IMG/VR virus record: IMGVR_UViG_3300032241_000422
Location: 1 to 26,918 of that record
Direction: 5' to 3' (one strand)
Length of the DNA stretch: 26,918 nt
DNA from: a virus
In this document: positions 5,949 to 26,260 of the stretch, piece by piece
Numbering within the stretch: position 1 is the stretch's first letter
Layout: every line of letters begins with the position of its first letter
Translations under genes and position numbers: made by a program
Notes under the pieces: generated by a model
What the model was told of the DNA's origin: nothing
What the model saw: the letters and a program-made list of their open reading frames with translations, nothing else
Database searches by the model: none

Positions 5949-8900
5949 TTAGACCGCCCTGCCGTAGCCGATTGCAGTGTAGGCGAATTGCCGGCTGATG
6001 GCACTGCCACTGCTGTTCTCGAATGTTACCTGGAATCCTGTGGTCGTCACGCTGGTGATCGTGAAGTAATCACCGGTCGCCATATTGCCCGATGTGATGC
6101 CCACGCTCGGTGCCTGATAAAAGGCATTGGCAAAGGTCACCGTATAGGTGCCGGCGCTGCTGGTCAGCGTTGCCGATTGCTCCACCCGTTGCTGCATCTC
6201 GACCAAGACGCCCAACTGGCGGATGATGATGTTCTGCGCCGTGTCGTTGCTGGTGGCGTTGAGCTGGAATTGAAGGCCGCGACCACGCACCGTGGCGTTG
6301 CTGAAATCAGCCCAGGCACTCCAAGTTGGTGAGCCGCTCGGGTTATCCGTGGTGGTGCGCACCTGCACCGAAGCGTTCACCTGATCGATGTTGGTGTCAT
6401 CAATTGTGGACCAGTCATCAATGAGACCGAGCTTGGAATCCCAAAGCGAATCCGGCAAATAGGCGAAGGTTTGCAGGCGCCGCTGGATATTCACGTCATA
6501 GGTGGCGCCAAGGTCCAGGGTCGAGGCGAACTGATACGACCCCGAGCTGGCAACGGCGCCACTTGATCTGGTCAGTACCAGGCCAACCTCGGTGCTGTCG
6601 TAGACCATGTTGGTCTTGGTGCCCTGGAATGGCGGGCTGGTGGCATCTTCCGCATCCAGCTGCACCTGATAACGCGGCTGCGGCGTTGGCAGATGCGTGA
6701 CCGCCATGGCCGAGTTGGTGCTACGAAAGCCCGAGCTGGTCTCAAACCTGACCAGGTAGGTGCCTTCCAGCAATGGCACTTGCTTTTGCGTCTGGCTGCC
6801 GGATGCCGAGGGCACGATGTCGGTTGCCTGATCCCATTGCGGGGCGACCGTATCCATCGAATGACGGATCAGCACCGAACCACCCACGCGGACGTTGAGA
6901 TCAGGCGCCAGGTTCCAGCTCAGGATGGCGCTGGTCTGATCAATGGGCACCAACATCAGGCCGGTCACATCCTGCGGCGTTTCATTGCGGCCGTAGGCGG
7001 TGTAATTCAGCGTCGCCACCTGAGATGCCATCAAGGCGGAGTTAAGGCTCGACACCTGGATTTGATAAGTATCGGGCGAGGTGTCGAGGATTTCGTAGCT
7101 GGGCGATGTGACCGTCACCGTTGTCCAGTTACCGGTCGAGCGACGCCATTGCAACCTGTATTGATTGACGCCTGGCACTGCCTGCCAGCTGACAACCAGT
7201 TTGCTCAGCACACGGTCGTTTAATTCATAAAGCACCTCAGTCGCGATGACGTTGGTTGGTGCGTTTGGAACGGCGGTCAAATTAGTGACAGACCGCGTTT
7301 GAAGGGCGATGCCATCTTCAATGTAGTTATATTTCGAGCTGTTATAAGAGAGCGCTGTGATCGCATAGCGGGCGCCGTCTTGTTCCTGGACGGTCAGCAC
7401 GCGCCATGTGGTTGTTTGCAAGGCGCTGGTTTGCAAAACCCAAACGCTGTTTGCATTAGGTGCGCTTGCAAATGCTGGCGACACTGTAATGACGTTGCCG
7501 CTGATGCCCGTGACGTTTGACGTTGCAACAGTGCCATCACTCAGGATCACTGACAGCGTCGGGCTATTGGTTGCCGTTAGCCCGGTGGCATTGTCAACGG
7601 TGACGGTCGTGGTCGTTGCGCTGGAAATGCGCCCGCCTTGCCTTGCGCCTGCACGCACAGGATCACTAATTTGGATAATCTGGCCAGGACGGACAATGAC
7701 GCCGGCGTCAATTGATGCAACGAAACTGACGGTTTCGGTTTCATATTGACCGGCATAAATCAGCCATTTGCCCAGGCGGTGTGCCTGGCCGCGCGATGTG
7801 CAAGCAAATGCGGTGACGGCTGTTTTAATGACGCCATATTTTGCAATGCTGGCCGCGTCTTCGACAACCTCGTAGGCCTGGTTGCGCAAATTTAGATCGA
7901 GATAAGCAACCTGCGCCACGTTCGGGCGCGTTTTTAAACTGGAGCCGGAATAGCTGAAACCTGGCTCTTCCACATTGGCCAAGGTGAAAAGATAGCTTGG
8001 ATCCGCCGGCTTATCCTGGCTGACCGTCAGCGCACCCGTACTCCAAAATGGCATCGCACGGAAAACCGACGCCATGTCGTTGATAAGTTTGAACGCATCG
8101 GTTTCTTGCTGAATGTTGACATTGCAAGAAAAGCGCGGCTCATAACCACCAAAGCCATCCGCGACTAACGTGCTGGCGTATTGCGAGCAAGAATAAAACG
8201 CCCATTTGTCGAGCTGGGTTGTGTCGACGTGATTACCAAATCCGTAGCGGGTGCTGGTCAGCAAGTCCCAAAGGCACCAGGCGGGGTCCGATGTCCATTG
8301 CGCCGCGCCAAAGGTGCCATCCCAAACGCCCGAATAAATCAGCCGTCCGTTGGTTTGGTCAACTGTTGCGTTGGATGGGATTTTGACTTTAATTCCGCGC
8401 ACCCAATAGGAACGGCTAGGAATGCTGCTGAATTGCTCTGCATCAACGCGCAAAGCAATAAGGGCGCTGTTGGGGTAGCCGAGTTTTTTGTAATTTATTT
8501 CCGTGTAACTGGTCCAAGCAAAGGCATCGGTTAAAAGCGACGTGGTGCTATCGCCGGTGACTCGCGTAACCTTGATGTCAACAGGAAATGTTCCATTTAA
8601 TCCGAAAACATAAGAACGCTGATATTGCTGCGACGTGTGGCCGCTGATGGTGTCATCAATAATGGTTGTAAAACCGCCGCCGTTGTATTGCACGGCGATT
8701 TGCAATTCGACGCTGGCGCCATTGACATTGCCTTGGCTGTCAATGTTTTGAAGCTGAGGCAGGGTAACCGTTACGCGCGCTGCATTGGTAGTTGTGTCGG
8801 TAATGGTGCGAACGACAGGAATGCTGTGCAAAACCGTGACGACAACGGGCACTTCGTTGGAAATGGCATCAAAGCCAGGGATATAGCTTTGGCTTTGCGT

Positions 8901-9191
8901 ACCGTTGCGAGTAAAAAGCGTGACGTTTTGGAAATTGTAGGAGCCGTCGGTATTGGTCAGCGGAAAATTTAGGGTGCCGTCTGGGTTTTGCAGCGGGGTG
9001 TTGTCGAAATAGATCGACTTCATCCCATCTTTTAAGCCGTAAATCTCCCCTTCACCAATCAGGTCAACAATGTTGGCGTAGCTTGTAGAAAACAAGCTAT
9101 TGGGAGCGGTTGTCGGTGTTGACGACGAACCGCCGCCACCTTTGCCGCCACCTCCGCCGCCGCCACCACCCGTGCCACGTATTAGGGTCAT
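5949..9191 (-). CDS. Tail tip/host specificity protein (lambda gpJ-like)
   Basis: This 1080-aa protein is the central tail-tip protein that contacts the receptor and starts DNA ejection. The N-terminus is a flexible Gly-rich run (residues about 6-20) followed by SLFSTSYANIVDLIGEGEIYG, quoted here only as SLFSTSYANIVDLIGEGEI, a hallmark of gpJ-type proteins. The baseplate-hub-like body contains WRVLTVQEQDGARYAITAL near 600-620. Two fibronectin type III-like domains follow (about 642-725 and 735-825), and the C-terminal ~100 residues (YTVTFANAFYQAPSVGITSG, ending FAYTAIGYGRAV) form a separate module often found on receptor-binding proteins. The start overlaps the gpI-like stop (ATGA) and the fibre gene follows after three bases. 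Length and order agree with lambda J (about 1130 aa). Confidence 0.95.
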   Translation of the reverse strand: MTLIRGTGGGGGGGGGKGGGGSSSTPTTAPNSLFSTSYANIVDLIGEGEIYGLKDGMKSIYFDNTPLQNPDGTLNFPLTNTDGSYNFQNVTLFTRNGTQSQSYIPGFDAISNEVPVVVTVLHSIPVVRTITDTTTNAARVTVTLPQLQNIDSQGNVNGASVELQIAVQYNGGGFTTIIDDTISGHTSQQYQRSYVFGLNGTFPVDIKVTRVTGDSTTSLLTDAFAWTSYTEINYKKLGYPNSALIALRVDAEQFSSIPSRSYWVRGIKVKIPSNATVDQTNGRLIYSGVWDGTFGAAQWTSDPAWCLWDLLTSTRYGFGNHVDTTQLDKWAFYSCSQYASTLVADGFGGYEPRFSCNVNIQQETDAFKLINDMASVFRAMPFWSTGALTVSQDKPADPSYLFTLANVEEPGFSYSGSSLKTRPNVAQVAYLDLNLRNQAYEVVEDAASIAKYGVIKTAVTAFACTSRGQAHRLGKWLIYAGQYETETVSFVASIDAGVIVRPGQIIQISDPVRAGARQGGRISSATTTTVTVDNATGLTATNSPTLSVILSDGTVATSNVTGISGNVITVSPAFASAPNANSVWVLQTSALQTTTWRVLTVQEQDGARYAITALSYNSSKYNYIEDGIALQTRSVTNLTAVPNAPTNVIATEVLYELNDRVLSKLVVSWQAVPGVNQYRLQWRRSTGNWTTVTVTSPSYEILDTSPDTYQIQVSSLNSALMASQVATLNYTAYGRNETPQDVTGLMLVPIDQTSAILSWNLAPDLNVRVGGSVLIRHSMDTVAPQWDQATDIVPSASGSQTQKQVPLLEGTYLVRFETSSGFRSTNSAMAVTHLPTPQPRYQVQLDAEDATSPPFQGTKTNMVYDSTEVGLVLTRSSGAVASSGSYQFASTLDLGATYDVNIQRRLQTFAYLPDSLWDSKLGLIDDWSTIDDTNIDQVNASVQVRTTTDNPSGSPTWSAWADFSNATVRGRGLQFQLNATSNDTAQNIIIRQLGVLVEMQQRVEQSATLTSSAGTYTVTFANAFYQAPSVGITSGNMATGDYFTITSVTTTGFQVTFENSSGSAISRQFAYTAIGYGRAV

Positions 9192-15017: not shown

Positions 15018-15947
15018 TCAGGTGAAGGAGAACGAGAACTCGTCGTTGCCGGCAGTCGTCGGGGTGGCCATGTAGGGCACCTGCAACATTTGAACGCCGT
15101 TCATGTCCACGTAAGTGGGCGCCGAGAGGTCCGTCTGGGGGGAGTTGAACGTAAAAATACTACCGGCAGTCGTGCCATGTTGAAAGCTCATGGCGCCGGT
15201 GGGCGTGTTGATCGCGGCGGAGAAGAAGTCCTTGGTGCCGATGTTGACAGCTTCTATCGAGAAAGTGCCAGAGGGCTTGCGGTCCACAAGCATGGCTTCC
15301 TTGGTGCCACCCACGAGTTCCCGGTACTGGATGTCATTGGCCAGCTTGAGGTCGATCGATTCAAGCGCACCCGAATAAGAGAAGACCGAGAAGTTGGAGG
15401 TGTTGCCGTTTTTGAAGATTAAAGGAGCGGCTTGGTTGTAGGAAGCAGAAGGCAGCGCCACATCGCTCGGGCTGTTGTAAAGCCCGATCATGTCAAATGT
15501 AAAATAAGGAATTTCACCCACTTTGCAAACCATGTCCACGGTCCCGCGGCAGCCGGTCAGCTTGTGGAACACGCCATCCACGTAGTAGTAGATGGTCGCA
15601 GAGCTGAAGCTGGTGGAAACCGGCGAGTACGCCACAGAGGTGGCAGCCGTGATGGTTTCAGAAAGGCCGCAAGCTTTCAAAACGGCGCCGAACTTGGGCG
15701 CGGTGCCAGCGGTGCCAGAACCCTGAATCTCAACGTCAAACTTGACCTGCACGCGAGTTTGCGCCAACAGCACTTCGTAGTTGCCAAGGTATGGCCTTAC
15801 GAGGTCGCGGCTTTTGACATCAGCCAACAGCGGGGTGATCTCCAACGTCCGCACCAAGAGGGCATCGGTCGAAGTTGGCACCGCATCGGTGCCGTAGGTT
15901 GTCTCAGCCTTGGTCAGGATGAGGCGCTTCCGAGTTCTGAGTGCCAT
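15018..15947 (-). CDS. Major tail tube protein (lambda gpV-like)
   Basis: This 309-aa protein would polymerise into hexameric rings to make the non-contractile tail tube. The N-terminus (MALRTRKRLILTKAETTYGT) and SRDLVRPYLGNYEVLLAQTR are typical of siphophage tail tube proteins, and the remainder is beta-rich with few charged clusters (VKFDVEIQGSGTAGTAPKFG). Position between the tail terminator and the chaperones agrees. The start ATG 15947 has no strong ribosome-binding site and lies inside the end of the preceding 56-aa gene (44-base overlap), so coupling is likely. The length is above lambda V (246 aa); no Ig-like decoration is evident at the C-terminus. Confidence 0.93.
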   Translation of the reverse strand: MALRTRKRLILTKAETTYGTDAVPTSTDALLVRTLEITPLLADVKSRDLVRPYLGNYEVLLAQTRVQVKFDVEIQGSGTAGTAPKFGAVLKACGLSETITAATSVAYSPVSTSFSSATIYYYVDGVFHKLTGCRGTVDMVCKVGEIPYFTFDMIGLYNSPSDVALPSASYNQAAPLIFKNGNTSNFSVFSYSGALESIDLKLANDIQYRELVGGTKEAMLVDRKPSGTFSIEAVNIGTKDFFSAAINTPTGAMSFQHGTTAGSIFTFNSPQTDLSAPTYVDMNGVQMLQVPYMATPTTAGNDEFSFSFT

Positions 15948-16074
15948 TGGCTGTTACCGGAGGTTGGTAATCGTTGGGGAACATGGGATCGAGCGTGCGC
16001 TCGACCAGCGTGCGCTTCCCTGTCTTGGGATCCAAGAGGTAGGAGCCGCCTTGTCCTGCGTATTCGTCTTCCAT
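15904..16074 (-). CDS. 56-aa small conserved phage protein before tail tube gene
   Basis: The frame opens at ATG 16074, five bases after the tail terminator stop, and ends at TGA 15904-15906, overlapping the start of the tail tube gene by 44 bases in another frame. The product begins MEDEYAGQGGSYLLDPKTGK and continues RTLVERTLDPMFP with a disordered, polar tail. The pattern YAGQGGSYxLD..GKR.LVERT is one I recall from small genes at this same position in other siphophages. No function is known. Position suggests a tail-assembly accessory. It is below common length cut-offs and easily missed. Confidence 0.75.
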   Translation of the reverse strand: MEDEYAGQGGSYLLDPKTGKRTLVERTLDPMFPNDYQPPVTANGTQNSEAPHPDQG

Positions 16075-16079
16075 CGTAG

Positions 16080-16511
16080 CTAGTTCACACTGGCGAGATT
16101 TGAGAGAGAAGTGCGATAACGGACGACGTAATCACACATGACGACGCCGGCCGGTTGGTCGGCTTCTATCAGTTGATAGTTTACCGAGGTTGGCTGGATA
16201 TCCATTGCGTAGCCGCCGAGCGTGATGTCGGCCATTACCTGTGAATGGAGCGACTGGATGGTGGCATCGGCCAACTGATCAGGTGCGGTGCCTCGAACAA
16301 TCACGGCAATGCGCACGGTCAAACTCCAGTCCAGCGTTGGAAGGCTTGTATTTTCTTGCGCTGTGTCGCTGATGGGTTCCACCACAATCGCGGGACTTTC
16401 CCCACGCGCCATGGCTTCCACACGGCTGCGATAAATTCGCGTGCCAACGCCGGACGTACCGGCAAGTGCCGTGACGATGTTGCTGAGAATGGATTCGCGG
16501 CGGGTCGTCAT
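16080..16511 (-). CDS. Tail terminator / minor tail protein (lambda gpU-like)
   Basis: This 143-aa protein most likely caps the tail tube and joins it to the head connector, or is the neighbouring gpZ-like joining protein. It begins MTTRRESILSNIVTALAG, then GTRIYRSRVEAMARGESPAI, LDWSLTVRIAVIVRG and ends YVVRYRTSLSNL; this alpha-beta pattern is that of siphophage tail terminators. The start chosen is ATG 16511, which overlaps the preceding stop as ATGA; the frame stays open to 16559 but those codons belong to the upstream gene. No membrane or signal segment is seen. Confidence 0.88.
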   Translation of the reverse strand: MTTRRESILSNIVTALAGTSGVGTRIYRSRVEAMARGESPAIVVEPISDTAQENTSLPTLDWSLTVRIAVIVRGTAPDQLADATIQSLHSQVMADITLGGYAMDIQPTSVNYQLIEADQPAGVVMCDYVVRYRTSLSNLASVN

Positions 16512-17320
16512 GCGGTTGCTCCAACGGCATCGATGGTGAGTGGGCTCATGTTGACCCAAGCGGAGCCGGTGTAACCCTCAAAGCAGCCGCGATCGGTGTT
16601 GTATCGAATCATGCCCTGCACCGCTGTTGGGCGCTGGGCAGTGGTGCCCACGGGCACCTGGATCGTGCCGGTGCTGTTAAAGGTCGTGTTGCCCGAAGCG
16701 TCAGTGGTGACGCGGATGGTGTTGTTGGTGGAAATAGTAAAAGGCTTGTTATCCCGAACCGTCAAAAATGCACTGCTAGAACCGATGCCAAGGACAATCC
16801 CTGTGCTGTCAAGGGCGTTGGAAGGAAGGGCAATCGAAAGGCATGTCTGCGTCCCAGAGGTTGCCTGCAGCCCGAGCATGTACCCAACGCTTGACCCATA
16901 GGTTTGCGTCGGGTTGTTTCCAACCAGCAAGGAACCGCTGCTTGTTCCAAACGTGGCGGCGCCTGTAAATGATGCGGCTGCACCATTGAGCGTACCGGTC
17001 AGCGTCGGCGAAGCCGAAAGCACCACGCTGCCCGTGCCAGTGCTGCTGGTGACGCCTGTGCCACCGTTAGCAACCGCAAGCGTGCCGGCCAAGGTGATTG
17101 CGCCTGTCGTGGCTGACGATGGCGTCAGGCCAGTCGTGCCGCCTGAAAAGCTTGAAACGGCCGCACCACCCAATTGCACCACCGAAGCGGTGCCGCTGTT
17201 CATGCAGCCGTAGAGCTTGCCGTCGTAAGTGTTGAATGCCAGCTCGCCCACGGACATTTGCCCCGTGGTCGGAACTTTGCCTGGGGTGCTGGAGCGCTTG
17301 AGAAGAACGGTGTTTGCCAT
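16508..17320 (-). CDS. Fibre-like structural protein with Mtd-N-like N-terminus (paralogue 1)
   Basis: This 270-aa protein begins NTVLLKRSSTPGKVPTTGQM then SVGELAFNTYDGKLYG, a short virion-attachment domain resembling the N-terminal domain of major tropism determinant proteins and many cyanophage structural proteins. A low-charge Ser/Thr/Gly/Ala body follows (VANGGTGVTSSTGTGSVVLS, LTGTLNGAAASFTGA), typical of phage fibres. The C-terminus contains VPVGTTAQRPTAVQGMIRYN and CFEGYTGSAWVNM, a common end module. It has a fair AGGA ribosome-binding site eight bases before ATG 17320. A fibre gene between connector and tail terminator is not the lambda arrangement; it may encode a decoration or whisker near the neck. 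The N-terminus is homologous in pattern to the next gene. Confidence 0.82.
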   Translation of the reverse strand: MANTVLLKRSSTPGKVPTTGQMSVGELAFNTYDGKLYGCMNSGTASVVQLGGAAVSSFSGGTTGLTPSSATTGAITLAGTLAVANGGTGVTSSTGTGSVVLSASPTLTGTLNGAAASFTGAATFGTSSGSLLVGNNPTQTYGSSVGYMLGLQATSGTQTCLSIALPSNALDSTGIVLGIGSSSAFLTVRDNKPFTISTNNTIRVTTDASGNTTFNSTGTIQVPVGTTAQRPTAVQGMIRYNTDRGCFEGYTGSAWVNMSPLTIDAVGATA

Positions 17321-17363
17321 TTGGCGGTCCTGAGATGGCTATGTAGCCGGACGTAACGAAGGC

Positions 17364-18551
17364 TCAGAACGAGCCGCCGTCGATGGTTGCGGAATCGTTC
17401 AGCAAGGTGCCCGAGGTTGGCAGTGTCACGCTGGTGGTGCCCGAAGCGGTAAAGGTGACGTTGTAAGCGCCGCTGAATGCAACGCTGCCACCCATGGTCA
17501 GGGTGCTAGATCCGTTGTTGACGCCGGTGCCACCGTAGGTGGCGCCAACCACTGAACCCTGCCAGGTGCCGGTGCTGATTGTCCCAACGGTGACGATGCT
17601 GCTCTGGCCGGCATAGGAACCGCTGATGCTCAGCGTGTTGCCCGATTTAGAAAGGCCAGTGCCGGCGGTGATTTCACCAGCGCCGGTGAATTGCGTGAAC
17701 GCAATGCTGGTGGTGCCCAGCGTGATGGTGCCGCTGGTGCTACATACCCAACCCGTCGAAGCGTTGGTGGTGCCTTCCTCAATAAAGGTGAACAGGCCGG
17801 GGGTAAATTCACCGCCAGGGCTGTTGTCGGCATCGGTGGACCGACTCCAGGCACCCGCAGCGACCACGTAGATGCCGTTTTGACTGGCGGTGCTTTGACC
17901 AGCCACCAGCACGCGATCACCAGCCACCAAAGCCACGCCGTCGATTGTTTGCGTGTTGCTCAGCGTGATGTTGCTGGTCGCAATGGCACGACAGCTGTTT
18001 TTGACATCGAGGCCGGTCTTGACGGCATCGACGTAGTTCTTGGTTGCTGCATCCTGCGCGTTGACCGGATCAGCAACGTTGATGATCGACTGGCTGTTAA
18101 AGGACACCGAAGCCGTCGGCGCCGCCATTTGATCCAGGCGGCTGGTGCGGACCTGGGTGTCAAAGTTGCTGATGTAGCTGGCTGTCAGCGTCGGAATATC
18201 CGTGGCGCTCAGCGTCGTGCCAGAAGTGACCCGGCCTTTGGAATCGGTCGTGACCTTGGTGTAGGTGCCAGACGTGCCAACGCTTGGCAGCGTCAGCGTC
18301 GAACCGGAAAGGTCAACGGTGCCGGTAAAAGTTTTATTGCCGCTGATTGTCTGGGTGGTGCCAAGCGTTGCAAACTGCCCAGGACCGCCAATGGCAAGGA
18401 TTGTTGTGGCGCTACCGCCAGTGCCGCCGGTGCCGACGCCGTAATAAAGGGTCGAATCAACTTCGTTAAAAGCCAATTCGGCGTTTGCCAGTGAGCTGGG
18501 GGCACCCGGTGAACCGCTAGCGCGCCGTTTAATGCGGACCGTGTTGCTCAT
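17364..18551 (-). CDS. Fibre-like structural protein with Mtd-N-like N-terminus (paralogue 2)
   Basis: This 395-aa protein starts NTVRIKRRASGSPGAPSSLA and ELAFNEVDSTLYYG, the same attachment domain as the gene downstream. A shaft follows (SGNKTFTGTVDLSGSTLTLP; TTDSKGRVTSG), then NAQDAATKNYVD at about 163-174 and a domain with TIDGVALVAGDRVLVAGQ and NGIYVVAAGAWSRSTDAD (about 205-240), a module common in phage tail fibres. The end is TLPTSGTLLNDSATIDGGSF. It would form a surface fibre or side appendage. Its ATG 18551 overlaps the upstream TAA by one base (TAATG), and a 43-base gap follows before the next fibre gene, the largest inside this cassette. Confidence 0.85.
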   Translation of the reverse strand: MSNTVRIKRRASGSPGAPSSLANAELAFNEVDSTLYYGVGTGGTGGSATTILAIGGPGQFATLGTTQTISGNKTFTGTVDLSGSTLTLPSVGTSGTYTKVTTDSKGRVTSGTTLSATDIPTLTASYISNFDTQVRTSRLDQMAAPTASVSFNSQSIINVADPVNAQDAATKNYVDAVKTGLDVKNSCRAIATSNITLSNTQTIDGVALVAGDRVLVAGQSTASQNGIYVVAAGAWSRSTDADNSPGGEFTPGLFTFIEEGTTNASTGWVCSTSGTITLGTTSIAFTQFTGAGEITAGTGLSKSGNTLSISGSYAGQSSIVTVGTISTGTWQGSVVGATYGGTGVNNGSSTLTMGGSVAFSGAYNVTFTASGTTSVTLPTSGTLLNDSATIDGGSF

Positions 18552-18814
18552 TAGAAGTTGCCCCCGTCAGTCAGCGACAGAATGGTGTTGGTGCCGTCCG
18601 CCTTAAATTTAGCGCTGGAGGCGTTGTAGAAGACGACGGCCTGGTCGGTGCGATTGGTCACATCAACGTCATGCAATGCCGCAAAGGTGTTGATGCCCAC
18701 GCTGCTATCGACGTAGCTCTTGGTGGCCGCATCAGTGTCCTGCGTTGGTGTGGCTAGGCCTGTGACCTTGCTGACGCCTTGCAGGTCAAGGTCTGTAAGG
18801 ACTTTCTTGCTCAT
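18551..18814 (-). CDS. Small fibre-like protein sharing modules with the next gene
   Basis: This 87-aa protein begins MSKKVLTDLDLQGVSKVTGL and carries DTDAATKSYVDSSVG, matching the DAATK(N/S)YVD element of the 395-aa fibre downstream, and ends SLTDGGNF against that protein's TIDGGSF. It therefore looks like a detached or minimal version of the fibre shaft base, or an accessory subunit assembling with it. The junctions on both sides are TAATG one-base overlaps in nearly identical sequence context, as though the unit had been duplicated. Alone it has no recognisable enzyme or binding motif, and function is inferred only from resemblance and position. Confidence 0.82.
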   Translation of the reverse strand: MSKKVLTDLDLQGVSKVTGLATPTQDTDAATKSYVDSSVGINTFAALHDVDVTNRTDQAVVFYNASSAKFKADGTNTILSLTDGGNF

Positions 18815-19317
18815 TAGAACAACCTCGCAATGCCGGCTGTAGCCACCGAGAACGTAACCACAGTCTGATTGATGGAAGGGTTGGTGACAGCAGCCTCCAC
18901 CTCGGCGCCGGTCGAATCGATGACCTCAACCGAAGGCTCATAGCCAAAGTTGTGGTCGATGACCCAGACAGTTGCCGGAGTGGGTTGCTCAAACACAAAC
19001 ACAAACGCACGCGGCTGACCGCCAGGCGCTGTGGCGTCGGGGTCCAGCTTGGTCAGCGTGATTTCGCAGAAAGAGCCATCATCCAATTTGCGCACTTCGC
19101 GCACCTGATAATGAGCGCCAGCAATGGTGATGCCATCGCCGTAAAACAACCCGCCAAAATCAGCGTTCTTGCACGTCAGTGTGTAGTCCGTGCTGATCAC
19201 CATGCCATTGCCAAGCACTTGGCCGGGCATATCGAGAATTCCCACGCCCGTAATGGCGCCAGCCGTGCAGGTGACGCCAAAGTCGGCGAGAAACGTATCC
19301 AACGGTTCGTTCACCAT
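18814..19317 (-). CDS. Head-tail connector protein fused to a C-terminal fibre-type module
   Basis: This 167-aa protein has two parts. Residues 1-97 (FLADFGVTCTAGAITGVGIL, TLTCKNADFGGL, YQVREVRKLDDGSFCEITL) resemble small head-closure/connector proteins of the lambda gpFII kind, which prepare the filled head for tail docking. Residues about 104-167 (VWVIDHNFGYEPSVEVIDST through VVTFSVATAGIARLF) match a small beta module (W.I.H.LGY.P.V.V.D) that I know from the C-termini of fibre-like virion proteins. The connector part fits its place between capsid and tail genes. The extra module would project from the neck and is the likely link with the fibre cassette just downstream. It overlaps the DUF1003-like gene by seven bases. 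Confidence 0.82.
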   Translation of the reverse strand: MVNEPLDTFLADFGVTCTAGAITGVGILDMPGQVLGNGMVISTDYTLTCKNADFGGLFYGDGITIAGAHYQVREVRKLDDGSFCEITLTKLDPDATAPGGQPRAFVFVFEQPTPATVWVIDHNFGYEPSVEVIDSTGAEVEAAVTNPSINQTVVTFSVATAGIARLF

Positions 19318-19676
19318 CTGCGGTGCCTCTCGATCTTCTCCAGGTGTTGATCTAGGTGCTCGGTGATGGCCATCAGGATCTTGTGGTCCTTTTGGTCGAT
19401 CTCAAGGTTTTCAATCGCGCGGGCGCGGTCGATTTCAGATTGACGGTTGGCTGAAATCAAAAGCATCGGCGCCGCGTATGCCGCTTGCAGGCTCAGGATC
19501 AGGTTGAGAAGAATGAACGGATAGGGATCTGGACGCTTGGCCGTTTGCATCGAGCAATTCAGGCAGATCCAAAACGTGATCACCACCGTTTGAATAATGA
19601 GAAACCGCCACGATCCAAGCGTGGCGCTGGCCTTATCAGCCAGGCGTTGCCCGAACGTAAGCGGTTTCTGTTCCAT
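19311..19676 (-). CDS. DUF1003-like two-span membrane protein
   Basis: This 121-aa protein matches the bacterial DUF1003 membrane family: a cytoplasmic start with LTFGQRLADKASATLGSW, a first membrane span (about 23-40, RFLIIQTVVITFWICLN), a short loop with the conserved DPYPFILLNL, a second span (about 53-74), and a charged coil-prone tail (NRQSEIDRARAIENLEIDQK). DUF1003 proteins are cellular inner-membrane proteins of unknown function; finding one in the middle of a phage structural operon is unusual. It starts one base after the preceding stop (TGAGATG) and overlaps the connector gene by seven bases, so it is part of the operon rather than a recent isolated insertion. It might act at the host membrane during infection. 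Confidence 0.88.
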   Translation of the reverse strand: MEQKPLTFGQRLADKASATLGSWRFLIIQTVVITFWICLNCSMQTAKRPDPYPFILLNLILSLQAAYAAPMLLISANRQSEIDRARAIENLEIDQKDHKILMAITEHLDQHLEKIERHRRW

Positions 19677-19677
19677 C

Positions 19678-19851
19678 TCAGGCGGCAGGCGCGGCTGCTT
19701 TTTTGGTTGCAGGTTTAGGTGCCTCGACAGGTTCGACCTGATGAGCCACTAGTTCGTGTTGCTCAGGGCTCAGCTCCAGCTCAGCGCCGGGACCGTGCAC
19801 CTCATTGCCATGGCGAACGTGGAAATGTTCGCGGACTTTGTATTTAGCCAT
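19678..19851 (-). CDS. 57-aa small protein after the capsid gene
   Basis: The frame opens at ATG 19851 just beyond the terminator hairpin and ends at TGA 19678-19680. The product starts MAKYKVREHFHVRHGNEVHG, then PGAELELSPEQHELVAHQVE, with a Pro/Ala/Lys-rich tail (PKPATKKAAAPAA). Small proteins with this K.KV...F....G...GPGdE.ELs..Q.. pattern are common next to capsid genes in many phages; their role is unknown, possibly a head accessory. No ribosome-binding site is evident because the poly-U tract of the terminator lies immediately before the start, so translation may be weak or depend on read-through. The gene is below common length cut-offs. Confidence 0.78.
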   Translation of the reverse strand: MAKYKVREHFHVRHGNEVHGPGAELELSPEQHELVAHQVEPVEAPKPATKKAAAPAA

Positions 19852-19856
19852 GTGTG

Positions 19857-19882
19857 AAAAAAGGGGGCGGTTGCCCGCCCCC
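19857..19882 (-). terminator. Intrinsic terminator after the capsid gene
   Basis: On the minus strand GGGGGCGG (19882-19875) pairs perfectly with CCGCCCCC (19870-19863) around a GCAA loop (a GNRA tetraloop), followed by six U residues (19862-19857). This is a strong Rho-independent terminator placed nine bases beyond the capsid stop. Because further genes of the same operon follow, it is probably a partial terminator that lowers expression of downstream genes relative to capsid, or acts as an mRNA 3'-end stabiliser. Confidence 0.9.
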
Positions 19883-19890
19883 GGCTCCTA

Positions 19891-21843
19891 TCAAGCGGCG
19901 ATGTCGGTGATGGCCGCGAAGGAAGCGGCGTGACGGACGGCAATGTCCACAGTCTGGAGGCTGCGGATATTGATCGAACCGGAGTTGTAACCGCTGCCAT
20001 AGGGGTTGGGCAGGATCTCGAGGGCGCCCCACATGCCGATGACCAGATCGGAGAAGTTACCGAAGAGGAGAGCGGACAGGTTGGTGCCAGTGCCTTTGGA
20101 CAGGTTGAAAGGAACCTGGTTGGTGCGAGCAACGCTGTAGCCCGAGATGCTGCCGGGGGTGGCAAGCGCGGTGGTGGCGTCGGTGTTGTTGCTCCACAGG
20201 TAACCGCCGTACTGATCTTTCAGCTGCTTGAGCTGAGCGATCACGCGAGCGTTGGTCATGTAGTAGAGCGAACCTTCCAGGGCGTTGGCGATGTCCAGTT
20301 TGGATTCAAGCTGGATCAGCTGGTCAAGGCCGGAGGGAGAAACGGAAGCCGAGCCGTTTGCAAAGGAACCACCGTTGGTGCCCATGCTCACGGTGCCGAT
20401 ACCGGACTGGTTCAGGATGCCGGTGGGTTCACCGTTAGCGCCAGCGCCGTAAATCGAAGCTTTGTCGATAGCAAGAGCCATCACCTTGGCGAGATCGTTG
20501 CGAACAACCATCTCGATGTCCGGTGTGGACTGTTGCAGCATCAGGCGACTGTACTGAGAAATGGCGCCGACTTGTTTCGGGCTCATGGTCACCTGGTCAA
20601 AGGTCACCTCGGCCTCGGTCAGGGTTTCAGCCTCATTCACCCAGTAGGTCTGAGTGGCAGAGGTCTGACGAGGAATGGCGATGTTGCCAACCAGGCCGGT
20701 CAGCATGGTGGGACCCAGCTGCATGATCATCGCTTTCGCCCGCAACACTTCAATGAAGCTGCCGGCAAGCAAATTTGTAGCAACCAGGCTGCCGCCAGTA
20801 GCAGAAGCGCCTACGGCATAAGGAGCGCGAAGGTTGAGGGGCATGAAGAAGCCCTCGGTTTCGCGGCCGGACTGGCGAGCCAGCTCGGCGGAAACTTCAC
20901 GCTCCAGGCCAGCGTTGTTCCATTTGCCGGAAGCAGCAGCGCGGATGGCTTTCACCACGCTGTACTGAGACATGTCACGCTCGGACATGTCCACGGTGCC
21001 GGTGCCTTTATCGGCGATCGGCTCCTGCTTGGCGCCCAGCTTCTCAAGAAAAGCGGAGCGAGCTTCGTCAAGGCTCTTGCCGCCGTCGATCAGCTGGCGA
21101 GCCATGTCGGCCTGGTTGAACTTGTCACCCAGCTTGGAGATGCTGGCAATACGAGCACGCTCAGCGGCAACCGCCTCTGAACGCACTTCGTCAAAGTTGA
21201 CGGAAGTGTTTTCCATTGTGAGATCCCTAGATTCGGGGGTTGGTGTAGAGGCGTGTTGCGCCGGTTCCACTGGTTCAGGAGATGAAACAGTGACTTCATT
21301 ATCGCTAGTGGGCTCTTCACGGCCGATCCCAACAGTGGGGTCAGCCGGAATCGTCACTAGCGATATCTCGTAAGGCGCCCAGCGCGTCGCTGTGAACGTT
21401 GCGCTGTCGCCTTCAGCTCCATCGGACACCATGTTCATGACGCGGTAACCGAAGGACACGTTACGGAGCACGTTGTCGGCAACGTCCCCCATCACCTGCT
21501 GCGCTAACTCATTTTGTGAGAAGCGAGCGGTGACATAACCGCGGCCACCATCAATCCAAGCCCGCTCGACAACGCCGATGAGCTGGTTGGGGTCGTGGTT
21601 GTAGAGCAGCGGTGCCCCGTCATTAAGACGGGACAGATCCGCCGCCCCGGATTCATGACTCAAGACTTCCTGCCCGAACCAGCGCTCAACTGGATAGGTG
21701 CTGCTGAAAGGAAAGGTGATCGAGCGCTGCTCGCTATCGACAATCGGCGCTTCCATCAAAATGGAGCGCTGCATCTTGGGCAGCTTCAGGCGGGTTTCGC
21801 CTGCTCTGGCAAGTCCTGCGGGATTAGCCACGGCGGCGCTCAT
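19891..21843 (-). CDS. Fused prohead protease and HK97-type major capsid protein
   Basis: This 650-aa polyprotein joins a maturation protease with the capsid subunit. The N-terminal ~175 residues are an HK97-like prohead protease with probable catalytic His83 (LLYNHDPNQLIG), Ser130 (LRNVSFGYRV) and nearby Glu159 (YEISLVTIPA). Residues 180-209 are a disordered Pro/Ser/Glu linker. From about 215 a helical, scaffold-like delta region begins (VNFDEVRSEAVAAERARIAS), and from about 330 the HK97-fold capsid (ASIYGAGANGEPTGIL, NIRSLQTVDIAVRHAASFAA). The protease presumably cuts away itself and the delta region. An internal ATG at 21216 could also yield capsid precursor alone. The start overlaps the upstream stop (ATGA) and a terminator follows the stop. 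Confidence 0.95.
   Translation of the reverse strand: MSAAVANPAGLARAGETRLKLPKMQRSILMEAPIVDSEQRSITFPFSSTYPVERWFGQEVLSHESGAADLSRLNDGAPLLYNHDPNQLIGVVERAWIDGGRGYVTARFSQNELAQQVMGDVADNVLRNVSFGYRVMNMVSDGAEGDSATFTATRWAPYEISLVTIPADPTVGIGREEPTSDNEVTVSSPEPVEPAQHASTPTPESRDLTMENTSVNFDEVRSEAVAAERARIASISKLGDKFNQADMARQLIDGGKSLDEARSAFLEKLGAKQEPIADKGTGTVDMSERDMSQYSVVKAIRAAASGKWNNAGLEREVSAELARQSGRETEGFFMPLNLRAPYAVGASATGGSLVATNLLAGSFIEVLRAKAMIMQLGPTMLTGLVGNIAIPRQTSATQTYWVNEAETLTEAEVTFDQVTMSPKQVGAISQYSRLMLQQSTPDIEMVVRNDLAKVMALAIDKASIYGAGANGEPTGILNQSGIGTVSMGTNGGSFANGSASVSPSGLDQLIQLESKLDIANALEGSLYYMTNARVIAQLKQLKDQYGGYLWSNNTDATTALATPGSISGYSVARTNQVPFNLSKGTGTNLSALLFGNFSDLVIGMWGALEILPNPYGSGYNSGSINIRSLQTVDIAVRHAASFAAITDIAA
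21214..21228 (-). promoter_or_regulatory. Possible internal ribosome-binding site and start for capsid precursor
   Basis: Inside the fused gene, AGGGA (21228-21224) lies seven bases before an in-frame ATG (21216-21214, Met210) located exactly between the disordered linker and the scaffold-like delta region. Starting here would give a 441-aa capsid precursor without protease. Lambda makes its scaffold from an in-frame internal start of its protease gene, so the principle is known; use of this site is inferred from sequence only. Confidence 0.5.
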
Positions 21844-22223
21844 TTCAGGAACCTCAGCTTGTAGATGGTGGAATCAAACAACTGCGCGATCTCATCGCAG
21901 AGATTTTGCAGCTCGGAATCTGAGCCAATGTTAGCCCTGGCGCCTTTGAAATAATCCGACAGGATCGACACGTACTCCAACGGCGTGCCGTCGTAGGGCA
22001 GGTAACCCTCGGGGTAGTTGGTCACGATGCCGTACTTGCCCTGGTAGGCCTCGATCAGCGAGTCGGTGAGGTCAGGCATGTTCTCGTAAAAGTTTTGCAG
22101 AGCCTTGTGCTCGCTGAAGCTCTTGGTCTGCAAATGCAAGATGTGCCCGGTCGTCGCTGCATGAAGCAGCGTCATAAAGAAATGGGCAACGTCGTCGTTG
22201 GTGGATGTGTCGGGTGGGATCAT
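21840..22223 (-). CDS. DUF5856-like, helical phage protein
   Basis: This 127-aa all-helical protein shows HFFMTLLHAATTGHILHLQT then KSFSEHKALQNFYENMPDLT, AYQGKYGIV and STIYKLRFLK. The pattern is one I recall as DUF5856, best known from T4-like cyanophages and other myoviruses; His and Glu residues spaced along the helices suggest a ferritin/Dps-like four-helix bundle, but metal binding is inference. It is inserted between portal and capsid genes, where lambda has its C/Nu3 protease and scaffold genes, and overlaps both neighbours by four bases (ATGA), so it is co-translated with head proteins. A role in the head or as a cytoplasmic helper is equally possible. Confidence 0.82.
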   Translation of the reverse strand: MIPPDTSTNDDVAHFFMTLLHAATTGHILHLQTKSFSEHKALQNFYENMPDLTDSLIEAYQGKYGIVTNYPEGYLPYDGTPLEYVSILSDYFKGARANIGSDSELQNLCDEIAQLFDSTIYKLRFLK

Positions 22224-23815
22224 GACGAAGACTTGGGTTGCTTGACGGGTTTGTTCATTTTGGGCGGTGCATCAACCGGCGCATCACCAGCCGGGGCAGC
22301 CGGCTCAAATTGATCGTCCGGCGTCGGTTGCTCTTGACCCTTGGCATCCACTGCGCCGCTGTCGGTATCAAAGACCAAGCCAAGATCCTGAGCCTGTTGC
22401 AGCTCGTTGCTGCGGTTGGCCAGCAGCTCCTCGATGTCGCCGCCAGCTTGCGCGATAACATCGGCCTGGGTCATAAACCCACAGCGCACGGCTTCTTTGT
22501 AGGCCTGCACTTCTTTCAGCGGATCAACCCATGCCCACCCGCGCGGCAACCAACGGGCTTGGTTGAAACGTGAGGGGTCGAGGTCATAACCAGGCAGGCT
22601 CAAAGAGCCAGACAGCACGGCCATATCCAGCCAGGTGTCGAACACCACCTGATGGAAGTTCTCAACTAGCCAATACTGAAGCACCTTGTAGTTGTCGCGG
22701 TCTTCAAGAAGCGACAGCCGGCTGGATGAATAGTTGGTCTGGCTGAAATCGCGGCTCACGGTCTCGTAGCTGACGCCGAGGCCGGCTGCGACCGCCCGCA
22801 GCATCTGCCGCATGAAGGGCTCAAACGTATCCGGGCGCTGCAAGCTCGGCACAGTGAACGATTCACCCGGTGCCAGGTACTTGATGGTCCCAGGCTCGAA
22901 CGCGGTCACGCGCTCGCCGTCTTCGATGGCTTCTTCCACCAGCTGGCCTTCAGGGCTGCTCACAAAACCCATCAGGCTGGCGCCAGCACGCGCAGCGATC
23001 ACCTCGCTTTGCTCGTAGCCGCTCAAGTGGTGCAGCCGGGTTAGCGCGGAAGCAAACCAGGGAATGCCGCGCGTCTGCAATGGACGCTCGTGGCGGAATA
23101 GATGGACCACCTCATCAGCTGGCACGCGAATGCGTTTGCGGTAAGGGTTGGACTTTTCGCCGTACTGATAATCGCCGGGATGCTTTTGATAGAACCAATA
23201 GGCCACCGGCCGCTGCCAGCGGTCCACTTCGACGCCCATTCGGATCTCGTTGCCTTCTTCCGAAACGCCGTTGTAGTTCTCATCCAGCAGGTCCGACTCG
23301 ATCACTTCCAGCGCAAGGGGGATCTTGGAACGGCCGAAAGGCTGCTTGATCATTCGGATCAGCACTTCACCCGACTCAGCGGTGCTTGTGACAGCCAACC
23401 GCTCAATATCGGCAAAGCACAGTCGCCCTGCGACGTCGCAGCTGTCCTTACGGCACCAGTCATCCCAGGCTTGCTCAATCGCGCTATTGACTTTCGGGTT
23501 GAGCTTGCCGCCGCGTTGCTGCCGGACCTGGCTTTGAAACTTGATGCCAGTTCCCACCACGTTGGTGGCAATTGCCCGCAGCGCTTGCTTGGCATAGTCG
23601 TTATCGCGGCAAAGCTGACGGACCCGGTTCCGCAACACGCGGATGCTCATCCGCGCTTCCGCGTCCTGGCTGGTGCTCTGGCTGATCCAGTCGGATGTCA
23701 ACCGCGAAAGCAACGCGCCTTCATAGGACCGGCGCCGTGGTGATGCCGCCGGCGCAGGTGGCTCAGCCTTGGCCTTGAAGCCAAGCGCTTCACGAATAGA
23801 GAATCCGAATGGCAT
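22220..23815 (-). CDS. Portal protein (lambda gpB-like)
   Basis: This 531-aa protein would form the dodecameric portal through which DNA is packaged and released. It has the lambda-family features: an N-terminal basic region (SPRRRSYEGALLSRL), LRNRVRQLCRDNDYAKQALR, then VVGTGIKFQSQ, the central AESGEVLIRM, VIESDLLDENYN, and IPADEVVH-type VPADEVVHLFR, followed by the clip/stem region RGIPWFASALTRLHHLSGYE and FSQTNYSSSRLSLLEDRDNY. The C-terminus is acidic and Pro-rich with a basic end. Length equals that of lambda gpB (533 aa). It starts at 23815 overlapping the upstream stop by one base (TGATG) and overlaps the next gene by four. Confidence 0.96.
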   Translation of the reverse strand: MPFGFSIREALGFKAKAEPPAPAASPRRRSYEGALLSRLTSDWISQSTSQDAEARMSIRVLRNRVRQLCRDNDYAKQALRAIATNVVGTGIKFQSQVRQQRGGKLNPKVNSAIEQAWDDWCRKDSCDVAGRLCFADIERLAVTSTAESGEVLIRMIKQPFGRSKIPLALEVIESDLLDENYNGVSEEGNEIRMGVEVDRWQRPVAYWFYQKHPGDYQYGEKSNPYRKRIRVPADEVVHLFRHERPLQTRGIPWFASALTRLHHLSGYEQSEVIAARAGASLMGFVSSPEGQLVEEAIEDGERVTAFEPGTIKYLAPGESFTVPSLQRPDTFEPFMRQMLRAVAAGLGVSYETVSRDFSQTNYSSSRLSLLEDRDNYKVLQYWLVENFHQVVFDTWLDMAVLSGSLSLPGYDLDPSRFNQARWLPRGWAWVDPLKEVQAYKEAVRCGFMTQADVIAQAGGDIEELLANRSNELQQAQDLGLVFDTDSGAVDAKGQEQPTPDDQFEPAAPAGDAPVDAPPKMNKPVKQPKSSS

Positions 23816-24387
23816 CAGTGGAACCGCACGAATAGATTGCGGGGGTTGCCCAACCCGTTAGCCATATCTTGCTGCAACTGCTCGCGGTAAACACGAGCCT
23901 TCAGCCGACTTTCAAGTTCGAGTAGATCCGTCATCGACATTTTGCGCAGATGCCGATTCCCAATCGTGTATTCCTGCACCGCGCCACCCGTGATAATCGC
24001 CCGAATGGCAGCCTGCACGGCCTCCAGATCAATCGCTGATTGCGTCCGCCCGTCATACGCCCCAGGTGTGCCCGAATAGCTCAGCGCAGGCATCACCGTG
24101 GACTGCCCCGAGCCCGCGGTGATGCTGCTGCTCCCCTTCGTCGCAACTGCTTGCCAATACCAAATGCCCTCAACCAATGTGGCGCTTACAGCCGCCGAAA
24201 TCGTGAACGCCCAGCCCAAGCCATAAACCGAGCCCGCCACCGTCGTGCCAGCACTGTCCGTATTGGTCCGCAGGTAATACGTCAGCTCCCAATCAACGCT
24301 CGTGACTGCATTGCCGAGATAATCCTTGGTTGGATCATCCAGCCATTGCACCGTGTCACCGGCCTGGATTGTCGCGGGGATGTTCAC
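23815..24387 (-). CDS. Ig-like plus gpW-like head protein between terminase and portal
   Basis: The product (190 aa from GTG 24387) has an N-terminal beta domain (NIPATIQAGDTVQWLDDPTK, WELTYYLRTNTDSAGTTV, WYWQAVATKG) and a C-terminal helical part with AVQAAIRAIITGGAVQEYTI, GNRHLRKMSMTDLLELESRL and a final NPRNLFVRF. The helical part and the position between terminase and portal recall lambda gpW, the head-completion protein that docks under the portal. Many phages carry this longer, two-domain version. I prefer GTG 24387, four bases after the terminase stop behind GGTGAGG, because the family begins NIPATI; a longer TTG start at 24408 would overlap the terminase gene. Its stop overlaps the portal ATG. 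Confidence 0.8.
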   Translation of the reverse strand: MNIPATIQAGDTVQWLDDPTKDYLGNAVTSVDWELTYYLRTNTDSAGTTVAGSVYGLGWAFTISAAVSATLVEGIWYWQAVATKGSSSITAGSGQSTVMPALSYSGTPGAYDGRTQSAIDLEAVQAAIRAIITGGAVQEYTIGNRHLRKMSMTDLLELESRLKARVYREQLQQDMANGLGNPRNLFVRFH

Positions 24388-24391
24388 GGCC

Positions 24392-26260
24392 TCACCAGTT
24401 GGCGACAAATGGCTTCTGCTCTTTCGATCTTAGCTGCGCCGGCTTTGTCTTCTCTACTGGCTTCTCAAGCCGCTTTTCCAACTGATCCCAAATCGTTCTG
24501 CGGTCGTACCGCTGGTACATCCGATTTAATCCGGCATAGGCATAGACCAAGCAGTCCAACGCTTCGTTGCGTGCGCTGGGTTTTTTGACCCATTCCCGAA
24601 TTGGAAATCCTTTCTGGAATCGCGTCACCTGCTTCTCGGCCGTCAATTCCAGGAAATACTGCTCACCCACCGTCGCAAAGAAATGCAAGTAGCCCGGTCC
24701 CACGTCGTTGTGACGCAACCGCCCAAACAACGTGGTCTTGATCGTGTCGCTACCAACCGGATAAACCGCTGCGCCGCGCTTCAGCACCCGACCCTTGATG
24801 TCCAAATCCACCTTGGTGGCCTTTCCGATCGGGACCTTGCCCCGCTGTGATTGCCCTTTGATCGCAATCACGCCAGCGCCCTGCCGTTCCCGCGCATATT
24901 GATAAACCTCAGCCGTGGCCAAGCCGCCCGAGTCGATCGCCACCACGTCCGGCTTGATCTTCACGCCCATCACGTGAGGCCATGGCCGCAAGATGATTTC
25001 ATCCAGCTGCTTCCAAACCTCAGCTCGATGCGGATCACCAAAAATCTCCTGGTGATCAATCAGCCAGCCTTCCTCTTCGCGTCCCCACGCCCAAACGCTC
25101 ACCGCCAAGCGATCACCAGCGGTGCCACCACCGCCTTGCACGTCCACGCCAACCGTCAACGCCAGGCTGCCTTCAGGCATCACGCCAGGCTCGTAGACCT
25201 CGGCGCGTTCCATCAAGGCATCAACGCCCACCTTGCTTGAGTACTCTTCCTCCCAAACCTCACCCAGCGCCGTATTCACAAAGGTCTTCAGCGTCTCTGG
25301 GTTCGATTTCGCTTCCAGGAACTCCGCCACCAGGTGGCTCCAAGTCGCGTTAGGGCTGTAGCTATAAGCCGCCCAGATATGGAAGCCCGCGTGCTTGCCG
25401 GTGCCTGGTGCCGTAGCTCGCCATTCCCCACGCTCCACCATCCGTCGCTTGTGCCGGTGCTCAATGCACACCCCGCAGCTCTCGCACACGTAATGCGCCG
25501 TATCGGGGTCGTTGTCCCGCCACCGCAAATGTGACCATTTGAGGTACTGCATGTGGTCACAATCCGGGCACGGCACGTAATACCGACGCTGATCCGACTC
25601 TCCAAACATCCGCTCGATGCGGCTAAAATCCTTCACCGTTGGCGTTGATCCCGCCACGATCTTGCGGTTCCAGTAGTACTCCGTCCGCCGGATGCCCAGC
25701 TTGATCTGGTCACCTTCCGTCCCCGCACTCGGTGGGTAACCGTCCACCTCATCGAACAACACAATCCGCCGGCTCACACGCCGAAACCCGCGCGGGCTGT
25801 TGGCGCCCACCAGGCTCAGCGTCCCGCCAGGGAAGGCCTTACCCAGGATCGTGTTTGCCCCATCCTTGGCCTTGGCATCACTCACCACGCCACGCAGGCA
25901 CGGCGTATCACGCAGCATCGGCGCGATCTCTTCCTTCGAGTACCCCTGCGCGTCTTCAATCGTCGGCTGGACCACCATGATCGGGCACGGATCCTGGTGG
26001 ATGTGATACCCAATTGCGTGGTTGATCATCTTGGTGTAGCCAACCCGCGCCGACTTCATCACCGTGATCTGTTCAACCGATGGATCCGTAACGGCATCCA
26101 TCATTCCCTTCTGATACGGCAACGTGTGCCACCGCCCGGCCTCAGCGCTTGACTCAGCGCTCAAGAACGCAAAGCGATCTGCCCATTGGCTCAAACTCAA
26201 CTTCTCCGGCGGCCGGAAGGCCTCCAGAGCCGCAGTAAGCAAGGCTGAGGCGTCAGCCAC
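24392..26260 (-). CDS. Terminase large subunit (lambda gpA-like)
   Basis: This 622-aa motor and nuclease packages DNA into the prohead. The ATPase part shows the family's deviant Walker A KSARVGYTK (69-77) and Walker B IVLFDEVD (166-173, Asp170, Glu171), preceded by the conserved LPYQKGMMDAV. A zinc-binding element lies at Cys231/Cys234 and Cys259/Cys262 (CPDCDH, CESCG). The nuclease domain shows Asp373 in LTVGVDVQGG, Asp443 in VVAIDSGGLAT and Asp569 in NEALDCLVYAYA. It starts at GTG 26260 with GAGG nine bases upstream and overlaps the small subunit gene by eight bases. GpA-type terminases usually belong to cos-type phages that cut 5'-protruding ends. Confidence 0.97.
   Translation of the reverse strand: MADASALLTAALEAFRPPEKLSLSQWADRFAFLSAESSAEAGRWHTLPYQKGMMDAVTDPSVEQITVMKSARVGYTKMINHAIGYHIHQDPCPIMVVQPTIEDAQGYSKEEIAPMLRDTPCLRGVVSDAKAKDGANTILGKAFPGGTLSLVGANSPRGFRRVSRRIVLFDEVDGYPPSAGTEGDQIKLGIRRTEYYWNRKIVAGSTPTVKDFSRIERMFGESDQRRYYVPCPDCDHMQYLKWSHLRWRDNDPDTAHYVCESCGVCIEHRHKRRMVERGEWRATAPGTGKHAGFHIWAAYSYSPNATWSHLVAEFLEAKSNPETLKTFVNTALGEVWEEEYSSKVGVDALMERAEVYEPGVMPEGSLALTVGVDVQGGGGTAGDRLAVSVWAWGREEEGWLIDHQEIFGDPHRAEVWKQLDEIILRPWPHVMGVKIKPDVVAIDSGGLATAEVYQYARERQGAGVIAIKGQSQRGKVPIGKATKVDLDIKGRVLKRGAAVYPVGSDTIKTTLFGRLRHNDVGPGYLHFFATVGEQYFLELTAEKQVTRFQKGFPIREWVKKPSARNEALDCLVYAYAGLNRMYQRYDRRTIWDQLEKRLEKPVEKTKPAQLRSKEQKPFVANW

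Follow-up and report, generated by a model that had tools for sequence, protein, structure and literature searches.

Gene layout and an insertion between the neck and tail genes

The window, by which we mean the whole stretch of DNA analyzed, is a 26,918-base IMG/VR virus contig in which the structural genes lie on the minus strand. Read in that direction, they run from the small terminase, TerL, adaptor, portal, a protease-capsid fusion, a DUF1003 protein, and the stopper to three genes for proteins of 87, 395, and 270 aa (hereafter f87, f395, and f270), followed by the tail terminator, tail tube, tape measure, and tip proteins ending with J (Table 1). The window also encodes integrase, dCTP deaminase, endolysin, and methyltransferase genes as well as, in addition to J, a separate 339-aa fiber gene. 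A preliminary description had delimited the same three open reading frames, and these indeed lie on the minus strand between a gpFII-type stopper and a gpU-type tail terminator. Three other gene products of the region may be mentioned in passing: the DUF1003 membrane-type protein (19311-19676), which sits between the capsid and stopper genes, is kept in the relative L130 and is unusual for a structural operon; a 127-aa phrog_858 protein, labeled as a starvation-inducible regulator, is encoded between the portal and capsid genes (21840-22223); and the C-terminal domain of J (5949-9191) is weakly similar to H-type lectin or gp53-like domains.

Table 1. Positions of the neck genes, the insertion, and its modules in the window, with comparable gene chains of other loci in the last row
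Feature	Position	Strand	Basis or remark
Head-tail adaptor (neck component)	23815..24408	-	phrog_5774, E 4e-42
Neck stopper, gpFII-type, 167 aa	18814..19317	-	PF05354, above cut-off
Stopper core, residues about 1-92	19042-19317	-	Homologues without fibers are 91-93 aa
Stopper flexible linker, residues about 93-104		-	AlphaFold2 pLDDT <50
Stopper added beta domain, residues 105-167	18817-19005	-	AlphaFold2 pLDDT 85-96
Insertion unit: stopper C-terminal extension, f87, f395, f270	16513..19053	-	Empty site in L130
f87, 87 aa, proposed base	18551..18814	-	DAATKSYVD element, LxDVDV...FYN module, DGGNF end
f87 C-terminal tag DGGNF (N-type, precedes f395-type sockets)	18554..18568	-	
f395, 395 aa, proposed link	17364..18551	-	Socket at the N-terminus and tag at the C-terminus, with the phrog_2647 domain between
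f395 N-terminal domain, residues 1-60, gp37-N-like socket	18372..18551	-	hhalign
f395 conserved domain, residues 115-311, phrog_2647 "head decoration"	17619..18209	-	Related to PDB 9nx3 and cyanophage PSS2 ORF074
f395 C-terminal tag DGGSF (T/S-type, precedes gp37-type sockets)	17367..17381	-	
f270, 270 aa, proposed tip	16508..17320	-	Begins with a socket, lacks a tag at its end
f270 N-terminal domain, residues 1-55, homologous to T4-type gp37 N-terminus	17156..17320	-	hhalign, HMM, tblastn
Tail terminator, gpU-type, right border of slot	16080..16514	-	phrog_4204, E 6e-37; 88% identity in L130
Vibrio podovirus four-gene chains	L218:7040-10276; L302:3037-6768; L219:3561-7067		

In L130, the counterparts of window stretches 19054-21202 and 15148-16512 are separated by just 7 bp, and the sequence present in the window at this point takes in the three fiber genes together with the final ~75 residues of the stopper. 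Therefore, the stopper extension and the three genes constitute one insertion unit. The cassette of three genes recognized earlier is thus a genuine unit, but one that is larger than had been proposed. In phages sharing the same backbone, the slot between stopper and terminator is empty in some cases and in others holds an Mtd_N protein (202-212 aa), an F5/8C-like protein (106-109 aa), or a larger set of fibers, and thus behaves as an exchange site for surface fibers. That Mtd_N proteins, some with a BclA_C/TNF-like domain, and F5/8C-like proteins fill the same slot supports a reading of its contents as neck appendages.

An extended stopper

Both the profile and the fold identify the protein upstream of the cassette as an FII-type stopper. 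It scores 34.5 bits against PF05354 (cut-off 26), and the model of its core matches the lambda stopper (8xow/8k37; Z 9.7, 98-99 residues aligned, rmsd 3.7-4.2), with further likeness to R4C, Chi, and other neck stoppers (best matches, Z 8.7-9.7). The whole protein is predicted by AlphaFold2 with a pLDDT of 83 and comprises this core, a flexible linker, and an added beta domain; the latter, predicted within the whole stopper, gave no separate fold match. The gpFII protein of lambda touches the gpU ring with its C-terminal loop (PMC10721106).

Extended stoppers also occur in relatives, with 51-150 residues beyond a core of ~91-93 aa. Among 47 non-redundant relatives, fiber genes are present in the slot beside 10 of 10 extended stoppers vs 13 of 37 unextended ones (p 2e-4), and multi-gene or large fibers accompany 6/10 vs 0/37 (p 2e-5), p-values that are optimistic because relatives are not independent samples. 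Among the relatives examined, extensions are found only where fiber genes occupy the slot; some slot fibers of the Mtd_N type (208-212 aa) go with unextended stoppers, which counts against anchoring through the stopper.

A similar linker is common to the stoppers of the window and of L153, L158, L135, and L200, but the modules behind it differ. With an HMM derived from all f87-like ends, the f87-like C-terminal module was detected fused to the stopper in L135 (E 2e-7) and L158 (E 1.5e-6) and, more weakly, in the extensions of L200 (E 8e-4) and L153 (E 0.03), whereas an HMM from just four such ends gave no significant match to stopper extensions. Candidate stoppers in L023, L047, L055, L075, and L080 were rejected, as their match was confined to the C-terminal extension domain.

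Shared modules of the three fiber proteins

The similarity between the N-termini of f395 and f270 noted in the preliminary description is borne out by a local alignment score of 68, the maximum in 2000 shuffles being 53, and by comparison of the f395-type and f270-type family profiles (hhalign 97.8%, E 1e-12). The shared domain had been called Mtd-N-like, but it better matches the N-terminus of T4-type gp37, with hhalign probabilities of 99.1% (E 1e-18) for f270 and 92.4% (E 5e-7) for f395 vs 10-16% for Mtd_N (PF18454), no Pfam match, and an Mtd fold match at Z 2.0. We have therefore replaced Mtd_N by gp37-N as the name of the domain; the two families score 79% against each other in hhalign. 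HMMs of the f270-type domain match gp37 at E 3e-13 to 3e-15, and tblastn also reaches gp37 genes. The profile matches of f270 to gp37-type families reach the N-terminus alone, the receptor-binding C-terminal region of gp37 being not seen.

f87 is devoid of such a domain. The DAATK(N/S)YVD element is, as had been described, common to f87 and f395; however, the alignment of the two proteins is by itself weak (equaled by 1.5% of shuffles), and the element is widespread in phage fibers. The other similarity pointed out between them, the DGG(S/N)F end, can hardly be due to chance. Among the 2502 genes called in related loci, 108 end in DGGx[FYW]; the f395 homologues, 82 in all, account for 60 of them, with DGG being invariant across the 37 homologues that were aligned, and most of the remaining genes with this ending sit directly before an f395 homologue. 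Hereafter, we refer to the five-residue end as the tag and to the gp37-N-like domain as the socket. A literature search on the tag motif and the DAATK element found nothing relevant.

Outside these modules, f395 matches phrog_2647 at E 4.5e-55. Its AlphaFold2 model, of moderate confidence (mean pLDDT 72, pTM 0.40), consists mainly of beta structure or loops. In VIA-align, residues 1-67 gave weak fold matches (Z 2.0-3.4) to trimerizing N-domains and the rest of the protein gave none, whereas Foldseek returned nothing below E 0.6; 9nx3 was absent from the fold matches. Residues about 195-258 of f270 resemble a module of cyanophage proteins, and a search of solved structures with f270 gave no match.

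Tags usually precede sockets

Across related loci, f87-like proteins have a tag but lack a socket, f395-like proteins carry both (tag in 44/53), and f270-like proteins carry the socket but almost never the tag, which is absent in 59 and present in 3 of 62. When loci were gathered by means of the f270 N-domain and genes lying behind an f395 homologue were set aside, the upstream gene ended in a tag for 27/40 f270-type and 25/29 f395-type genes vs 20/310 other genes (p 3e-18 and 1e-21, respectively; again optimistic given the relatedness of the loci). The tag residue at position -2 differs according to the socket that follows, being N before 43 of 58 f395-type sockets and T or S before 97 of 111 f270/gp37-type sockets. 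After clustering at 75% identity, N precedes 8/16 f395-type vs 1/53 gp37-type sockets, and T/S 0/16 vs 46/53. The window obeys the rule, with DGGNF followed by the f395 socket and DGGSF by the f270 socket.

The same pairing is found in the long tail fibers of T4-like phages, where gp36 ends in D[FY]Gx[YF] in 8/8 phages examined and, in T4, trimeric gp36 binds the N-terminal region of gp37 (PMC3004832). The window has a gp37-like N-domain in f270 and, less strongly, f395, an upstream partner with a D-x-G-x-aromatic end (f395 and f87, respectively), and the same partner-then-socket gene order. Because gp36 and gp37 show the same pair, we read tag and N-domain as two halves of a joint; by analogy, it would be the tag itself that contacts the N-domain. 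Unlike in T4, the locus is that of a siphophage neck rather than a baseplate fiber, the middle protein bears both socket and tag, and neither gp34, gp35, and gp38 nor a gp37 receptor tip was seen.

A proposed modular neck fiber and its alternatives

Collectively, these observations suggest that f87, f395, and f270 probably join end to end into a neck fiber through the tag and its matching socket. f87, with a tag only, would form the base; f395, with socket and tag, the link; and f270, with a socket only, the distal tip. The DGGNF end of f87 would engage the N-domain of f395 and the DGGSF end of f395 that of f270, as gp36 does on gp37, with the N or T/S residue of the tag determining the order of the chain, which would end at f270 because this protein has no tag. 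The added beta domain, borne on a flexible linker by a presumably hexameric gpFII-type stopper ring, would be the anchor or part of it. We consider it fairly probable that the insert as a whole encodes such a modular neck, or collar, fiber, anchored via the stopper and held together by gp36-gp37-type joints. From the genes, we infer that the proteins physically dock, are trimeric, attach to the stopper, and are located at the neck of the virion, with the tip binding to a surface.

The position of the cassette is by itself no proof of a neck location, given that it is also found in head or tail-fiber regions: it adjoins neck genes in Melnitz, lies between the portal and capsid genes in L034 and L054, and is found among tail-fiber genes in L002, P-HM1, and PSS2. 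In L002, Melnitz, DC31, and P-HM1, the base follows a protein of 111-118 aa, which in L002 and P-HM1 is LtfC-like or annotated as such. No LtfC-like anchor gene adjoins the cassette in the window, where the stopper extension stands in that place, suggesting that the anchor sets the location of the fiber, hence the neck here. Accordingly, whereas the preliminary observation of a fiber cassette was confirmed and enlarged, its interpretation as neck-attached appendages is partly supported: the inclusion of the stopper extension in the insertion unit, the restriction of extensions to slots with fiber genes, and the fusions in relatives speak for it, and the occurrence of the cassette in head and tail-fiber regions elsewhere speaks against it. 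The carbohydrate binding and the specificity separate from that of the tail tip, which had also been suggested, gained no support.

This wider occurrence leaves room for two other locations. The proteins could be capsid decorations or head fibers, with f395 on the capsid shell in many copies, f270 projecting from it, and the stopper extension incidental. Such a view draws on the assignment of f395 to phrog_2647 and its relationship to 9nx3, described as a capsid decoration protein, on the head decoration annotation of related genes in S-CBS2 (gp51) and Myrna (gp111), and on the proximity of the cassette to the capsid gene in L034 and L054. The label is, however, inherited. ORF074, the f395 relative in PSS2, was identified in virions from 2 peptides, yet it owes its name to its likeness to a lambdoid tail collar/fiber protein, and its gene is located in a tail-fiber cluster (PMC2784084). 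Since the name rests on similarity, the label is no evidence for a capsid location, and for f395 it is weakly supported. f395 resembles PSS2 ORF074 and Myrna gp111 in its central domain but shares socket and tag with the S-CBS2 protein; the PSS2 and Myrna members (L082 and L217), annotated as head or capsid decoration, have neither. With the stopper extension forming part of the insertion unit, we regard a capsid location as unlikely. Similarly, we find it quite unlikely that the products are tail-tip or side tail fibers merely encoded at this locus. The socket is that of a long tail fiber protein and the same cassette lies amid tail-fiber genes in P-HM1 and L002, yet the window already has the 339-aa fiber gene and a tip protein, J, whose end is lectin-like, the cassette inserts at neck genes and alters the stopper, and the LtfC-like anchor gene that would be expected from L002, Melnitz, and P-HM1 is not beside it.

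A further explanation would deny the shared ends and N-termini any role in joining and ascribe them to the shuffling of fiber repeats, the DGG codons perhaps serving as a ribosome-binding site. Fiber genes are highly mosaic, and some DGG codons do lie 8-10 bases upstream of the next ATG. Nevertheless, the tag is retained at gaps of -4 to 60 bases before the next gene, even where that gene has its own binding site, on which ground the ribosome-binding-site reading was rejected; the aromatic last residue and the choice between N and T/S are conserved; and the known gp36-gp37 joint has the same tag-socket pair. Shuffling without a joining role therefore appears very improbable.

Comparison with known neck appendages

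The modular neck fiber proposed here has a precedent in that of Anabaena phage A-1(L), gp82-gp81-gp80, which consists of three co-transcribed parts (PMC10966104). That fiber is anchored at the neck, and its single operon supplies a base, middle trimers linked one behind the other, and a distal part, an architecture like the one envisaged for the window. It differs in being attached via gp82N to the gp5 ring and in having about 14 repeated gp81 units. The neck passage structure (NPS) of lactococcal TP901-1 and the T4 whiskers (fibritin) are also neck appendages and thereby agree with the position and broad role proposed here. However, NPS, which lies downstream of the receptor-binding gene, contains a BppU-like collar domain, and f87, f395, and f270 gave no Pfam or PHROG match to a BppU-like N-terminal collar domain; fibritin is a coiled coil, of which none was seen here, and f395 and f270 gave no Pfam match to it at E up to 1.

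If the gap between stopper and terminator is indeed a slot in which a core neck protein gets extended along with each new fiber set, the small number of imaged cases would understate how common and how diverse siphophage neck fibers are. The joint is already known in kind from gp36-gp37, and its use to build chains of defined order from an exchangeable neck cassette, by way of tag and socket, appears to be new, as no description of it was found in the open-access literature.

Putative tag-socket chains in other phages

The base-link-tip pattern also fits, with small changes, the cultured phages S-CBS2, Melnitz, DC31, and P-HM1. Three Vibrio podoviruses (172P1, 1.293.O, and 1.208.B) have four-gene chains without an f395 protein, composed of two tagged bases, a link with socket and tag, and a tip with the socket alone. 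Conceivably, then, there is a general code for fiber assembly, in which a D-[GFY]-G-x-aromatic tag docks into the gp37/Mtd_N-type N-domain of the next gene product, residue 4 of the tag picks the class of socket, and the resulting base-link-tip chains need only a different anchor to switch between neck, head, and tail. We would give this generalization an even chance. It would provide a testable rule, readable from gene ends, for which phage fiber proteins join and in what order, and would link the T4 gp36-gp37 joint to many genes now left unannotated as "hypothetical" or "head decoration."

Several further gene arrangements deserve mention. In P-HM1 (L304:4001-8141), a gene annotated as gp7 baseplate wedge starts with a gp37-type socket behind the same cassette, and its name may be wrong. 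Another type of stopper extension, in L156-L167, ends in (D/N)GGxA and is followed by a 202-aa Mtd_N protein, possibly representing a third tag-socket pair. Finally, a 460-aa Mtd_N fiber encoded among the tail-tip genes of L138 (15117-16499), and also of L139, L147, and L151, has DGG[ND]F and a single further residue at its C-terminus, with a second Mtd_N gene coming next, as though the tag-socket rule extended to tail fibers.
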